Shown here in pieces: positions 2-6,024 of a DNA stretch of 64,000 nt; positions within the stretch are counted from its first letter, which is position 1, and the number at the start of each line of letters is the position of its first letter. The translations under genes and the position numbers were made by a program. The stretch lies in the IMG/VR virus record IMGVR_UViG_3300025887_000013, positions 20,827-84,826 of that record; one strand, written 5' to 3'. This DNA is from a virus. A model generated the notes under the pieces. The model ran no database searches. It was not told where the DNA came from and was given only the letters and a program-made list of their open reading frames with translations.

Positions 2-1138
2 GATCGTACTGCGGTATGTTGTTTGTCGTCTTTGAATCTTGAATACTTTGATGACTGGAAAGATACTAACATTGTGGGTGATATCGTGCGAATGCTCGAT
101 AACGTCCTAGAATACTTTGTAGAGAATGCACCAGACTCGATCAGTCGTGCGAGATACAGTGCACAACGTGAACGATCTATTGGTTTGGGTGCGATGGGTT
201 TCCATTCACTTCTCCAGAAACATGGAGTTGCATGGGAGTCTGATAAAGCACGTGAAATGAATGATGTTGTATTCTCACACATTAATATACAGGCAGTCGC
301 AGAAACACAGAAACTGGCCCTAGAACGTGGCGAGTATCCTGATGGGTTTGGTTCGGGTAGACGTAACAGTCACTTGATTGCGATTGCACCTAATGCATCA
401 TCTGGTGTTATTTTGAGTACAAGTCCTTCTATCGAACCATTGAAGGCATGTGCATATACACACCGTACTCGTGCGGGTAGTTTCTTGGTTAAGAACAAAT
501 ACCTTGATCGACTACTTACCGAGAAGGGTCAGAACAACGAATCGAACTGGACTTCTATTATCACTAATAAAGGTTCGGTACAACATCTTCCGTTTTTGAC
601 CGAAGGTGAGAAGTCTATATTTAAGACCGCACAAGAGTTAGATCAGAACTGGGTAGTACAACACGCAGCTGATAGACAGAAGTATATCTGTCAGGGTCAG
701 TCGGTGAACGTATTCTTCCCTGCTGGTGCACCTAAATCATACGTGAATAAGGTACATCTCAAGGCGTGGAAGGAAGGTCTTAAAGGTCTATACTATCTAC
801 GCACCGAGGCAAAGTCTCGTGCAGAGAATGTATCGGAGAAGGTAGAACGTGTTGCATTACAAGAAGATAGTCGCAGTATAGTATACGGTATTCCCAACTG
901 TCCGTTCTGTGAACTTGCAAAGGAAGAATTGACCTTACGCGGTATTAATTATGACTATATCGATTTGAAAGAAATTGGTAAGTCTGCGGCTGAAGTGACT
1001 GGTCGTAGTGTTAAGACTGTTCCACAGATCTATATCCAAGGCAACTATGTCGGTGGTTACGAAGAACTGATGTTGTTCTTGGGTAATGCGGACTCACCAG
1101 CACAAGAAGATAATGAGTGTAGAGCTTGCGAAGGTTAG
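2..1138 (+). CDS. nrdA: Ribonucleotide reductase large subunit (NrdA), C-terminal part with fused glutaredoxin domain; partial at window edge
   Basis: Class I ribonucleotide reductase catalytic subunit, which reduces NDPs to dNDPs. The gene begins before the window and the reading frame is open from base 2. The first visible residues contain TAVCCLSSLNL, matching the active-site cysteine strand of class I NrdA (C462 region of E. coli). The radical-transfer tyrosine pair is visible as GLYYLRTEA (about base 790). A glutaredoxin domain follows, with CPFC at about base 899 and TVPQIYI (the Grx cis-Pro loop). The protein then ends in CRACEG, which looks like the usual NrdA redox-active C-terminal cysteine pair. 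The Grx therefore sits between the barrel and the tail and could re-reduce the enzyme in cis. It is followed by an SGNH gene and nrdB. Identity is near certain; the function of the fusion is inference. Confidence 0.95.
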   Translation, partial: DRTAVCCLSSLNLEYFDDWKDTNIVGDIVRMLDNVLEYFVENAPDSISRARYSAQRERSIGLGAMGFHSLLQKHGVAWESDKAREMNDVVFSHINIQAVAETQKLALERGEYPDGFGSGRRNSHLIAIAPNASSGVILSTSPSIEPLKACAYTHRTRAGSFLVKNKYLDRLLTEKGQNNESNWTSIITNKGSVQHLPFLTEGEKSIFKTAQELDQNWVVQHAADRQKYICQGQSVNVFFPAGAPKSYVNKVHLKAWKEGLKGLYYLRTEAKSRAENVSEKVERVALQEDSRSIVYGIPNCPFCELAKEELTLRGINYDYIDLKEIGKSAAEVTGRSVKTVPQIYIQGNYVGGYEELMLFLGNADSPAQEDNECRACEG

Positions 1139-1914
1139 TAGTATTTGGAGATAGTTTTGTAGAAGGTTACAATGCCATGCCTGAAGTGAAAGTGACACGT
1201 TTCAATATGTGTCACTTTTTAGAAAGGGAACTTGGTGTAGAAGTTGTCAACTGCGGAAGGAGAGGGGCTGGCAACGCATCTATCGCAAACAAAATATTCA
1301 GATATATACAGTCCAACGATATGACCAACACATCGATCTTGGTGGTTTGGTCTGGGGTAGATAGGTCTATGGAATTGAATCATGAGTATATAACTACTGA
1401 TGACAAGTTCATGGACTTTGATTATCTCGACTATATAGTTGGTGGAACAAGACAGTTCGAGAAAGAAAGACTTGAACTTGAAGAGTATCGAAATATGTCT
1501 ACACTACGATTGCAGTCAGAAATCTCATACCATTCGGTAAGAATGATTTGCCAAGACTATGATGTACCTGTTATAATGACCAATAGTTTCGATAATACTC
1601 TGATCGAAAGGAAACGAATGTATCAGAAAAGAGTCCGAGACATTAATTTTATTCACGGTAAAATAAAAGACTGTTGGATAGAACCAGAACACTCCTCTAA
1701 TACTTTACTTGATATAATTATAGGTGAGTGGTTAGAAGAAATAGATGACAAACCAATGTGGATACCCCAAAGGGTAGAAAGAGCAAAACATATAATTAGG
1801 TCAGACCCTAGTAAATATCCTAATATTACACTTTGTATTCACCCGTCTGATTCGGGTAATGAACTTATAGCAAAAACATTAACACCATATATACTACCAA
1901 TATTACAGGAATAA
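1126..1914 (+). CDS. SGNH/GDSL-hydrolase-like protein
   Basis: A 262-residue protein opening with LVVFGDSFVEG, the GDS nucleophile block of SGNH hydrolases. It continues with GRRGAGNASIANKI (Gly/Asn blocks II-III-like) and VVWSGVDRS. A convincing DxxH block is not obvious near the C-terminus, so an active esterase is not assured. The start is TTG at 1126, overlapping the nrdA end by 13 bases; no in-frame ATG lies nearby because an in-frame TAG stands just upstream. It is inserted between nrdA and nrdB, a position where T4-like phages often carry small accessory genes. The substrate is unknown: a carbohydrate or lipid ester are both possible. Confidence 0.7.
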   Translation: MRRLVVFGDSFVEGYNAMPEVKVTRFNMCHFLERELGVEVVNCGRRGAGNASIANKIFRYIQSNDMTNTSILVVWSGVDRSMELNHEYITTDDKFMDFDYLDYIVGGTRQFEKERLELEEYRNMSTLRLQSEISYHSVRMICQDYDVPVIMTNSFDNTLIERKRMYQKRVRDINFIHGKIKDCWIEPEHSSNTLLDIIIGEWLEEIDDKPMWIPQRVERAKHIIRSDPSKYPNITLCIHPSDSGNELIAKTLTPYILPILQE

Positions 1915-1916
1915 AA

Positions 1917-2912
1917 ATGGCACTACTAGATTTTTCGAAGACGTACAAACCCTTCCAATACCCATGGGCTGTAGAACTGACAAAGAAACACGAAGAGATT
2001 CACTGGGTTGAGGACGAGGCAGAACTGTCCGAAGATATTCAAGACTGGAGAACCAAACTCACCGAACAAGAGAAAGAGTTCATCACTCAGGTACTACGAT
2101 TGTTCACTCAGTCGGATGTGCAGGTAGGCGAGAACTATCACGAACTGTTGATCCCTAAGTTTAAGAACAATGAGATCCGTAACATGTTGTCATCCTTTGC
2201 AAACCGCGAAGGTGTACACCAACGTGCGTATGCATTGTTGAATGATACTCTGGGTCTGCCAGACGAAGAACACTCTGCCTTTATGGAATACAAAGAGATG
2301 GCAGACAAGATTGACTTCATGAAAGAGGGTAACATCAACTCTCACACAGGTCTTGCACTTGTACTTGCACAGTCTGTATTCAATGAAGGTATGAGTCTGT
2401 TTGCATCATTCGTAATGTTGTTGAACTTCCAACGTTTCGGTAAGATGAAAGGTATGGGTACAATCGTTGAGTGGTCTATTCGTGATGAGACTATGCACGT
2501 ACAAGGTAATGCGAAGTTGTTCCGTGAGTTCTGTGAAGAACATCCACGTGTAGTAAACGATGAACTGAAGTCTAAAGTATACGAGATGGCAAAGAATGCT
2601 GTTAAGTTGGAAGATAGATTCATCAAACTTGCATATAAGTCCGGTACCATCGAAGGATTGACTGAAGCAGATGTTAAAGCATATATCCGTCATATCGCAG
2701 ACAGACGTTTGTTGCAACTTGGTATGAAGCCTAACTTCAAGGTCAAGGATAATCCACTCCCTTGGTTAGACTGGGTACTGAACGGTGCATCACATGACAA
2801 CTTCTTTGAGAAACGTGTTACCGAATACTCTGTAAATGGTATGGATGGTGATTGGGATTGGGAAGAAGAACCACAGGTCTGTGGTCTAGACGGCGAGGGG
2901 TGCGCTGCATGA
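1917..2912 (+). CDS. nrdB: Ribonucleotide reductase small subunit (NrdB), class Ia type
   Basis: The radical-generating beta subunit that pairs with NrdA. All expected metal ligands can be placed: D67, E98, H101, E157, E191 and H194. The radical tyrosine is Y105, in the E-x-x-H-x-x-x-Y spacing of E. coli E115/H118/Y122. This indicates a diiron-tyrosyl (class Ia-like) enzyme rather than a Tyr-less class Ic form. At 331 residues it is somewhat shorter than E. coli NrdB (376) and typical of T4-like phage copies. The C-terminal tail that should dock into NrdA is acidic and ends in GEGCAA. Its stop overlaps the next ATG (ATGA), so it is translationally coupled to the zinc-ribbon peptide. Confidence 0.96.
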   Translation: MALLDFSKTYKPFQYPWAVELTKKHEEIHWVEDEAELSEDIQDWRTKLTEQEKEFITQVLRLFTQSDVQVGENYHELLIPKFKNNEIRNMLSSFANREGVHQRAYALLNDTLGLPDEEHSAFMEYKEMADKIDFMKEGNINSHTGLALVLAQSVFNEGMSLFASFVMLLNFQRFGKMKGMGTIVEWSIRDETMHVQGNAKLFREFCEEHPRVVNDELKSKVYEMAKNAVKLEDRFIKLAYKSGTIEGLTEADVKAYIRHIADRRLLQLGMKPNFKVKDNPLPWLDWVLNGASHDNFFEKRVTEYSVNGMDGDWDWEEEPQVCGLDGEGCAA

Positions 2913-3055
2913 AATTAAGATATGAAAACATCTGTCCTATATGTGACATAGAAAGTACTATCATAGTACACTACGTTGACGATAGACCACAACACTGTCC
3001 TATGTGTGGTGAAGATGCGGAATTAGAACAGATTGAAGGAGTTGAAGAAGATTGA
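2909..3055 (+). CDS. Small zinc-ribbon protein
   Basis: A 48-residue protein. Two CxxC knuckles, CPIC and CPMCG, are separated by about 20 residues and should bind one zinc ion as a rubredoxin-like ribbon. The ATG at 2909 overlaps the nrdB stop and has a good ribosome site (GAGGGG) upstream; a longer reading from 2852 would run through nrdB and is not needed. It lies between nrdB and panD in one tightly overlapping unit. Function is unknown; a thioredoxin-like electron donor is unlikely because there is no such fold, and a protein-protein or nucleic-acid adaptor is possible. Confidence 0.75.
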   Translation: MKLRYENICPICDIESTIIVHYVDDRPQHCPMCGEDAELEQIEGVEED

Positions 3056-3393
3056 TTTCTACCTTCCTAAAATCCAAATTGCATATGGGAACCGTCACTG
3101 ACTGTGAGTTATGGTATGACGGTTCTGTTGCTATTGATGAAGATTTGGTTGTTGCCGCAGGGATGCGGGAGTATGAACAAATTGATATCTATAACGCAAC
3201 TAACGGAAAACGTTGGACTACTTACATAATACTTGCGCCCAAGGGTTCGGGCACTATTTCCGTGAATGGGCCCGGTGCGCGTAATGCAATGGTGGGTGAT
3301 CGTGTAGTTCTTTGTACATATGTATCTGTTGATGCGCACATGTTTACCCCCAATCAGATATATCTGAATACAGACAATACCATCATAAGTTAA
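3052..3393 (+). CDS. panD: Aspartate 1-decarboxylase (PanD), pyruvoyl-dependent
   Basis: L-aspartate to beta-alanine plus CO2, the committed source of beta-alanine for pantothenate and CoA. Over 113 residues the family landmarks fall at the same numbers as in E. coli PanD: K9 (KLH), the self-cleavage pair G24-S25 in YDGSVAID, R54 and Y58 in NGKRWTTY, and N72 in SVNG. Ser25 would become the pyruvoyl group after autoprocessing. It lacks about a dozen C-terminal residues of the 126-residue E. coli enzyme. The start is TTG at 3052 inside the preceding TGA (TTGA overlap), so expression is coupled to the nrdB operon. A phage copy is unusual; it is best read as an auxiliary metabolic gene. Identity is confident from conserved residues; activity is inferred. 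Confidence 0.93.
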   Translation: MISTFLKSKLHMGTVTDCELWYDGSVAIDEDLVVAAGMREYEQIDIYNATNGKRWTTYIILAPKGSGTISVNGPGARNAMVGDRVVLCTYVSVDAHMFTPNQIYLNTDNTIIS

Positions 3394-3394
3394 G

Positions 3395-3443
3395 TGTCTT
3401 ATATATAAGTCATTAGACCCCTTAATGGCAGTTATATAAGACA
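3395..3443 (+). promoter_or_regulatory. Long inverted repeat immediately upstream of the GIY-YIG gene start
   Basis: TGTCTTATATA at 3395 is mirrored by TATATAAGACA ending at 3443, directly before the ATG at 3444. The loop is about 25 bases. The start codon has no clear Shine-Dalgarno sequence, so the hairpin could hide or replace the translation start, or serve as a palindromic binding site. There is no T-tract, so it is not a typical terminator. Confidence 0.45.
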
Positions 3444-3902
3444 ATGTGGTACATCAAGAATACAGAATACAATCCTACCGAAGACGAACTCAGCGAATAC
3501 GTTGGGTTCGTTTATCTTATTACAGAACGTGATACCGGAAAGAAATATGTCGGTAAGAAGTTCTTCTGGTCTACTCGCAGACTACCACCATTAAAAGGTC
3601 AGAAACGGAAACGCAAGGTTACCAAACAATCTGACTGGATGGACTACTATGGGTCATCCGAAGAACTCAAATTACTGGTAGAAAAGAAAGGTGGTGAAGC
3701 ATACTACCGAGAGATACTACACCTCTGCAAAACCAAAGGTGAGTGTTCCTACCTCGAAGCTAAAGAACAATTCGACCGTGACGTTCTGTTACGGGACGAC
3801 TACTACAATGCGTTTATTGGATGTAAGATTCACGCAAAGCACCTCCCCAAGACACTAGTCCAATCCGGACATCAAATAGAACCTTGGCACAATCGACCAT
3901 AG
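3444..3902 (+). CDS. GIY-YIG-type endonuclease-like protein
   Basis: A 152-residue basic protein. The N-terminal GFVYLITERDTGKKYVGKKF has the shape of a GIY-YIG core (Y-x-LI ... G-x-x-YVG), with the downstream conserved DYYGSS, REIL and YN blocks seen in T4-like phage GIY-YIG proteins of this size. A DNA-binding tail is short or absent. Members are usually called Seg-like or putative endonucleases; they may cut host or competing phage DNA. It stands alone between a long hairpin and an early promoter. The fold assignment is moderately confident; the role as homing nuclease is not shown. Confidence 0.68.
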   Translation: MWYIKNTEYNPTEDELSEYVGFVYLITERDTGKKYVGKKFFWSTRRLPPLKGQKRKRKVTKQSDWMDYYGSSEELKLLVEKKGGEAYYREILHLCKTKGECSYLEAKEQFDRDVLLRDDYYNAFIGCKIHAKHLPKTLVQSGHQIEPWHNRP

Positions 3903-4148: not shown

Positions 4149-4363
4149 TGAATGTAGATACACTAGAGAAAGTTGTTTATATGTTGATTGCAGCTGCAAT
4201 TGCGGTTCTCACGCTTGTTTATGTGGGTGACAATATTCTGGATCAACCAGACGTGCACTTCAGTAATTCTACTGGCGAATGCGTCAAGGTTATAAACTAT
4301 GGAGATGATGAATACTCCTGTGATAATATACCAAAACGTTATAACCATGTATGGGTCTTATAA
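4148..4363 (+). CDS. Small membrane protein, unknown (71 aa)
   Basis: The N-terminus has one strong membrane helix (about residues 10-28, VVYMLIAAAIAVLTLVYVG), followed by a roughly 40-residue polar segment with two cysteines (GECVK, YSCDN) that may form a disulfide if exported. It is coupled to the preceding small gene and transcribed from the 3940 promoter. It could be an inner-membrane host-takeover protein; a holin role is not supported because only one helix is present. Confidence 0.65.
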   Translation: MNVDTLEKVVYMLIAAAIAVLTLVYVGDNILDQPDVHFSNSTGECVKVINYGDDEYSCDNIPKRYNHVWVL

Positions 4364-5958: not shown

Positions 5959-5979
5959 GGAAGGTGATCCGTATCTCTT

Positions 5980-6000
5980 CACCCCCCCACTCGGGGGGTG
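5980..6000 (+). terminator. Strong GC hairpin without T-tract
   Basis: CACCCCCC / GGGGGGTG with a 5-base loop. No run of T follows (TCGTATGG), so it may be a weak terminator, a transcript-processing or a stability element rather than a standard intrinsic terminator. Confidence 0.55.
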
Positions 6001-6024
6001 TCGTATGGAAAACAATAATAAATT

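Follow-up and report, generated by a model that had tools for sequence, protein, structure and literature searches.

Vitamin B5 and coenzyme A (CoA) are built in part from beta-alanine, the product of aspartate 1-decarboxylase (PanD). Most bacterial PanDs belong to class II, and the maturation of these enzymes is independent of PanZ. E. coli PanD cannot bind PanZ without its residues 119–126 (KAIPVQVA), which organisms with PanZ conserve (PMC4410942), and variation in this tail has been proposed as a predictor of which PanD zymogens require PanM/PanZ (PMC4537548). In isolated phages the gene is rare. A search of viral databases with a phage PanD had been proposed in an earlier note on the DNA studied here; when we ran tblastn against 50,697 phage records it gave 15 matches, of which two are genuine panD genes lying among true phage genes, gp87 of phage Jace and the panD of Achromobacter phage 2-1, both already annotated. 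The annotation of three further matches, on Acinetobacter ‘phage MD-2021a’ contigs and a Salmonella genome, shows them to be bacterial DNA, and unannotated ‘phage’ clones from Listeria, Staphylococcus, Enterococcus and E. coli were taken as probably bacterial. The PanD family is absent from PHROGs, so phage annotation pipelines based on PHROGs miss this group; the PanD fold was not found in BFVD at E 0.001, and no paper discussing a phage PanD was found in the open literature searched.

Metagenomic viral contigs give another picture. At least 96 IMG/VR contigs carry a PanD relative confirmed by alignment search, 80 of which were retrieved, and at least 10 PanD records outside the group studied here also hold a terminase or a T4 major capsid gene. 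Four (L046, L047, L049 and L089) look cellular in the PanD tree. As a rough control, a PanC search of IMG/VR returned only 4 contigs, a number not strictly comparable since the search patterns differ from those used for PanD; cellular carry-over is therefore not a likely cause of the PanD matches. The statement of the earlier note that this is not a usual phage function should be amended: the gene is rare in phages, yet recurrent. Phage PanD has been annotated before, and its recurrence across phage types is the interesting part. Annotated panD genes occur on plasmids too, several of them from E. coli and Salmonella and about 120–130 kb in size (matches H93–H100 in the plasmids collection).

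The window analysed in this work is a stretch of 64,000 nucleotides from a marine T4-like phage whose IMG/VR record is 84,826 bases long. The features around its panD are the following:

2..1138, + strand: 3′ part of nrdA, the window beginning inside the gene; C-terminal glutaredoxin domain (PF02867, PF00462)
1126..1914, + strand: SGNH/GDSL-type hydrolase between nrdA and nrdB (PF00657, E 3.7e-6)
1917..2912, + strand: nrdB, ribonucleotide reductase small subunit (PF00268, E 1.7e-73)
2909..3055, + strand: zinc-ribbon peptide of 48 aa, an nrdB companion in this phage lineage
3052..3393, + strand: panD, aspartate 1-decarboxylase zymogen of 113 aa with a TTG start (PF02261, TIGR00223, PDB sequence and fold matches)
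about 3121–3126, + strand: codons of the Gly24-Ser25 cleavage bond of PanD
3395..3443, + strand: hairpin from the panD stop to the segE start (-18.8 kcal/mol)
3444..3902, + strand: SegE-like GIY-YIG protein, closing the cargo slot on its downstream side (PF19835, E 2.8e-37)
5959..6024, no strand: junction that carries a different panD in sister T4-like phages and is empty in the window (5958/6025), by comparison with L050, L054, L062, L067, L081 and L093

The genes are tightly packed: the zinc-ribbon ATG overlaps the nrdB stop (ATGA), and the panD TTG start overlaps the zinc-ribbon stop by 4 bases (TTGA). NrdA is intact (660 aa) in the related contig L006, where the hairpin of about 49 bases between panD and segE is identical. 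Lying just ahead of the segE start, this hairpin might control segE translation or mark the end of the nrd transcript. Smaller hairpins are seen at the same junction in panD-less relatives (L145, L160, L192), and larger ones in the panD phages.

The identity of the window ORF as PanD, proposed in the earlier note, is near certain. The protein covers the whole PF02261 model (E 4.3e-36, 123.7 bits against a cut-off of 25) and with TIGR00223, the NCBIfam panD equivalog, it reaches 118.9 bits (cut-off 106). With phmmer it matches the E. coli PanD precursor 1PPY at E 1.7e-26, free of indels to residue 93, so that K9, H11, Y22, G24, S25, R54, T57, Y58 and N72 carry the same numbers as in E. coli. 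Aligned with one another, 26 PanDs of viral and cellular origin gave the same result: K9, H11, Y22, G24, S25, D29, E42, N48, G52, R54, T57, Y58, G73 and D83 do not vary, and N72 is at least 90% conserved. The placement of K9, G24-S25, R54, Y58 and N72 at the E. coli positions, also claimed in that note, is confirmed. The window protein thus keeps the catalytic residues K9, R54, Y58 and N72, the Gly24-Ser25 processing site and Thr57, which a published study (PMC3975893) describes as needed for PanD activation. An AlphaFold model, built from the window PanD together with related loci, has a pLDDT of 95.6; its best PDB matches are E. coli PanD precursors (TM 0.92–0.97, with 0.96 to 1PQE/1PPY), and the predicted fold is the PanD-type double-psi beta-barrel. 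A PanD function is probable on these grounds, and we infer that the protein would cleave itself and decarboxylate aspartate.

The window PanD stops at residue 113, equivalent to E. coli 116, so that the 118/119–126 tail that marks class I is absent. Since the KAIPVQVA segment is missing, the enzyme should neither need nor obey PanZ, and the suggestion that its short C-terminus might free it from host maturation control was a reasonable guess. Such freedom would not be special, class II bacterial PanDs being PanZ-independent as well; an IPxQ-like tail is present in only 15 of the 38 cellular PanDs sampled, and its absence here is an ordinary feature.

The location of panD in a phage genome is certain. 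The same gene with the same TTG overlap occurs in three more IMG/VR contigs at 99% identity and in four at 91%, the 8 kb around it match contig L004 at 99.96%, and the flanking gene order follows that of the complete phages C48C1 and Melnitz. Being a homologue of a cellular metabolic enzyme inside a genuine phage genome, it can be classed as a putative phage auxiliary metabolic gene.

What would a phage gain from a PanD of its own? We propose that a PanD zymogen is translated from an nrdA-nrdB-zinc-ribbon-panD transcript, would fold as the usual double-psi barrel and would cleave itself between Gly24 and Ser25, with no need for PanZ, to form the pyruvoyl cofactor. The mature enzyme would then convert aspartate to beta-alanine, which would pass to the host PanC and relieve the beta-alanine step of pantothenate/CoA synthesis during infection, with the largest effect expected in hosts that lack PanD and possess PanB and PanC. 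The host PanC is the expected destination because no PanB or PanC was found in the PanD phage records searched, the window record and most of its relatives being fragments; this absence is what one would expect of a phage that supplements one step and does not bring the pathway itself. Four weak PanC matches considered as signs of a pantothenate cluster have short frames like those of another nucleotidyltransferase, and the two that were translated look by eye like a TagD-type cytidylyltransferase. As for hosts, a PF02261 match was present in 124 of the 249 Pseudomonadota genomes sampled and in none of the other 125. Three Pelagibacter genomes have been tabulated with PanB and PanC and without aspartate decarboxylase (PMC7142369), and Melnitz, the closest named phage whose host is known, has been placed in a group that includes pelagiphages HTVC008M and Mosig (PMC9004378); in a Pelagibacter-type host a phage PanD would supply the missing beta-alanine step ahead of the host PanC. 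Flow into CoA, a benefit to the phage and a host lacking PanD would each be expected if this explanation, which as a whole we regard as moderately probable, is right.

Phages keep panD in several places. In the window type (a) it follows nrdB and the zinc ribbon. In the six sister T4-like phages compared at 5959..6024 (type b), whose PanDs are 39–44% identical to that of the window by alignment, it lies 3 kb away from the window position, in the order nrdB, segE, further genes, DUF6433, a small gene, panD, a small gene, phoH. An AMP-binding enzyme near this second site was discarded as a partner, being present also where panD is not. In marine T4-like contigs L024–L044 (type c) the order is gp45 sliding clamp, panD, gp44 clamp loader, with a dCMP deaminase nearby. 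In type (d), comprising Jace, L048, L065, L074, L084 and L088, an ABC-ATPase/GNAT fusion (phrog_11143) comes first and panD after it, and in Achromobacter phage 2-1 (type e) panD stands beside DNA polymerase and RNase H. In types (a), (b), (c) and (e) the gene is found among replication or nucleotide genes. Some observations concern single records. In L028 (5082–7377) and L041 (5077–7365) panD is inside the core replication operon, between gp45 and gp44; in the record of L041 a terminase match (G006:C1:26688–28427) crosses two TGA codons that lie in frame and might reflect an insertion or an intron. In the T4-like L069 (4626–6507) panD directly follows a gene of the beta-eliminating lyase family (tryptophanase/tyrosine phenol-lyase type), and the near relative L085 has no panD at that spot.

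The strongest rival to CoA supply, an unlikely one, is that beta-alanine serves another use, for example to modify DNA, protein or a small molecule in a way specific to the phage. It draws on the six type (d) loci, where phrog_11143 precedes panD and a CoA-transferase-III-like gene follows in five of the six records, with a ParB-like protein ahead of the cassette in Jace and some others; two marine T4-like contigs, L035 and L032, also have the ABC-GNAT protein one gene from panD. The cassette (ABC-GNAT/PanD/CoA-transferase-like) lies at 4347–7019 in L074, at 3974–7039 in L088 and at 1847–4612 in L011 (Jace). However, phrog_11143 is a family of no assigned function, and neither it nor the CoA-transferase III is present in the window record or in most T4-like PanD phages, so that this cassette was rejected as an explanation for the window panD.

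We surveyed the 80 nearest NrdB loci in IMG/VR (L143–L222), 77 of which have segE downstream. The gap between nrdB and segE holds the zinc ribbon alone (187 bases or fewer) in 43 of the 77 and panD in only two, the window type and L196; the remaining cargo resembles, by names read from sequence, dCMP deaminase, 2OG-Fe oxygenase, FkbM-type methyltransferase and NodU-type carbamoyltransferase. The zinc ribbon follows nrdB in most panD-less relatives as well, which makes it a companion of nrdB, rules it out as a PanD partner and leaves panD as one of several cargoes. The earlier description of panD as overlapped by TTGA with the zinc ribbon, within the nrdB unit, is correct in its overlap and position; the zinc ribbon, however, goes with nrdB and not with panD, and the hairpin parts panD from segE. 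Since the cargo is so varied, the position of panD says little about its role. The proposal that coupling to ribonucleotide reductase ties CoA to dNTP synthesis is not supported: panD elsewhere stands beside the clamp loader, phoH or DNA polymerase, and adjacency to the reductase genes is not good evidence for such a link.

As to descent, in a tree of 81 PanDs the deep forks were not separated. In a reduced tree, from which long branches were left out, a choice made after the first tree had been seen, the window PanD and the gp45-panD-gp44 type share a purely viral clade of 12 rows (support 100/98), nested on the side of the gamma/beta-type cellular PanDs, and the type (b) PanDs group with other cellular PanDs. 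The trees thus favour two separate acquisitions of panD in related T4-like phages, but AU tests reject neither a single clade of window and type (b) PanDs (p 0.079 and 0.139) nor one clade of all viral PanD rows (p 0.318 and 0.166), and a cellular origin of the phage gene is accordingly a possibility. The panD of L196 (6284–6625), 54% identical to that of the window and in the same slot, joins the window pair with support 84/90, a grouping that would fit an old insertion kept in the slot. The L196 protein has R in place of N72, as does that of L060, at a residue otherwise nearly invariant.

Another reading, that an insertion hotspot holds panD as neutral or passing cargo of no lasting benefit, would agree with a slot so often empty or filled with unrelated genes, but we think it improbable. 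The frame is intact with all catalytic residues, and between the window panD and that of L006, a relative at 91%, dN/dS is about 0.35 (20 changes in all), as expected under purifying selection; the divergent L196 gene in the same slot also groups with that of the window, and panD occurs in at least two placements and in several phage types. A drift of the protein to another substrate or to a non-catalytic role is more doubtful still: the tail is lost and N72 is replaced in L196, but the window PanD keeps K9, R54, T57, Y58 and N72. Cellular contamination or an assembly chimera can be dismissed as having practically no chance, for although several ‘phage’ records with PanD are truly bacterial DNA, the check for a chimera indicated none, the gene, its place and its flanks being shared with seven other viral contigs from other metagenomes and the flanks being syntenic with the complete C48C1 and Melnitz.

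We return to a self-maturing PanD feeding the host PanC. In its favour are the identity and fold of the protein, the low dN/dS, the recurrent carriage of the gene, mostly without other pantothenate genes, the lack of the PanZ tail, the sampled Pseudomonadota and tabulated Pelagibacter genomes without PanD, and the grouping of Melnitz with pelagiphages. Against it count the varied cargo of the slot and the fact that panD is less constrained than either nrdB or segE, which show 0 and 1 amino-acid changes in the comparison with L006. Finding panD in many phage lineages that are not related to each other suggests that a supply of beta-alanine is of value to an infecting phage. If the enzyme is active, phages would be seen to reach into vitamin B5 and CoA supply, at a step that Pelagibacter and other abundant marine bacteria lack. 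Because panD recurs at several places within the replication and nucleotide modules of phages of different kinds, a limitation of phage growth by beta-alanine or CoA becomes directly testable with this one small, self-maturing enzyme. A general viral beta-alanine strategy, opening a CoA bottleneck in PanD-less hosts and feeding an undescribed DNA or protein modification in the phages with the ABC-GNAT/CoA-transferase cassette, is a speculative prospect with low odds.

Compared with known systems, the closest named phages are C48C1 and Methylophilales phage Melnitz (Kyanoviridae), by NrdB (82% and 69%, respectively) and by gene order. Both lack panD; the nrdB-segE slot of C48C1 holds a phosphoribosyltransferase and a phosphorylase-family protein, and that of Melnitz holds nothing. 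Rhodococcus/Gordonia phage Jace gp87 (NC_047974) is likewise an annotated aspartate decarboxylase of an isolated phage, but it is 141 aa long and 41% identical, and lies in the ABC-GNAT/PanD/CoA-transferase-like cassette of an actinophage. The annotated PanD of the isolated Achromobacter phage 2-1 (OQ974181) is 36% identical, sits on a very long branch and belongs to an unrelated phage type. The uncultured marine T4-like L024–L044 carry the nearest PanDs in the reduced tree, but these are 50–57% identical to that of the window, occupy a site in the core replication operon and in most cases have an IPTQ-like tail. With the class I PanD of E. coli and Salmonella and with class II PanDs, the window protein shares the fold, the G24-S25 site and K9, R54, T57, Y58 and N72; it is 46–48% identical to E. 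coli PanD in the fold alignment, and at 113 aa against 126, missing the PanZ-binding KAIPVQVA tail, it resembles class II.
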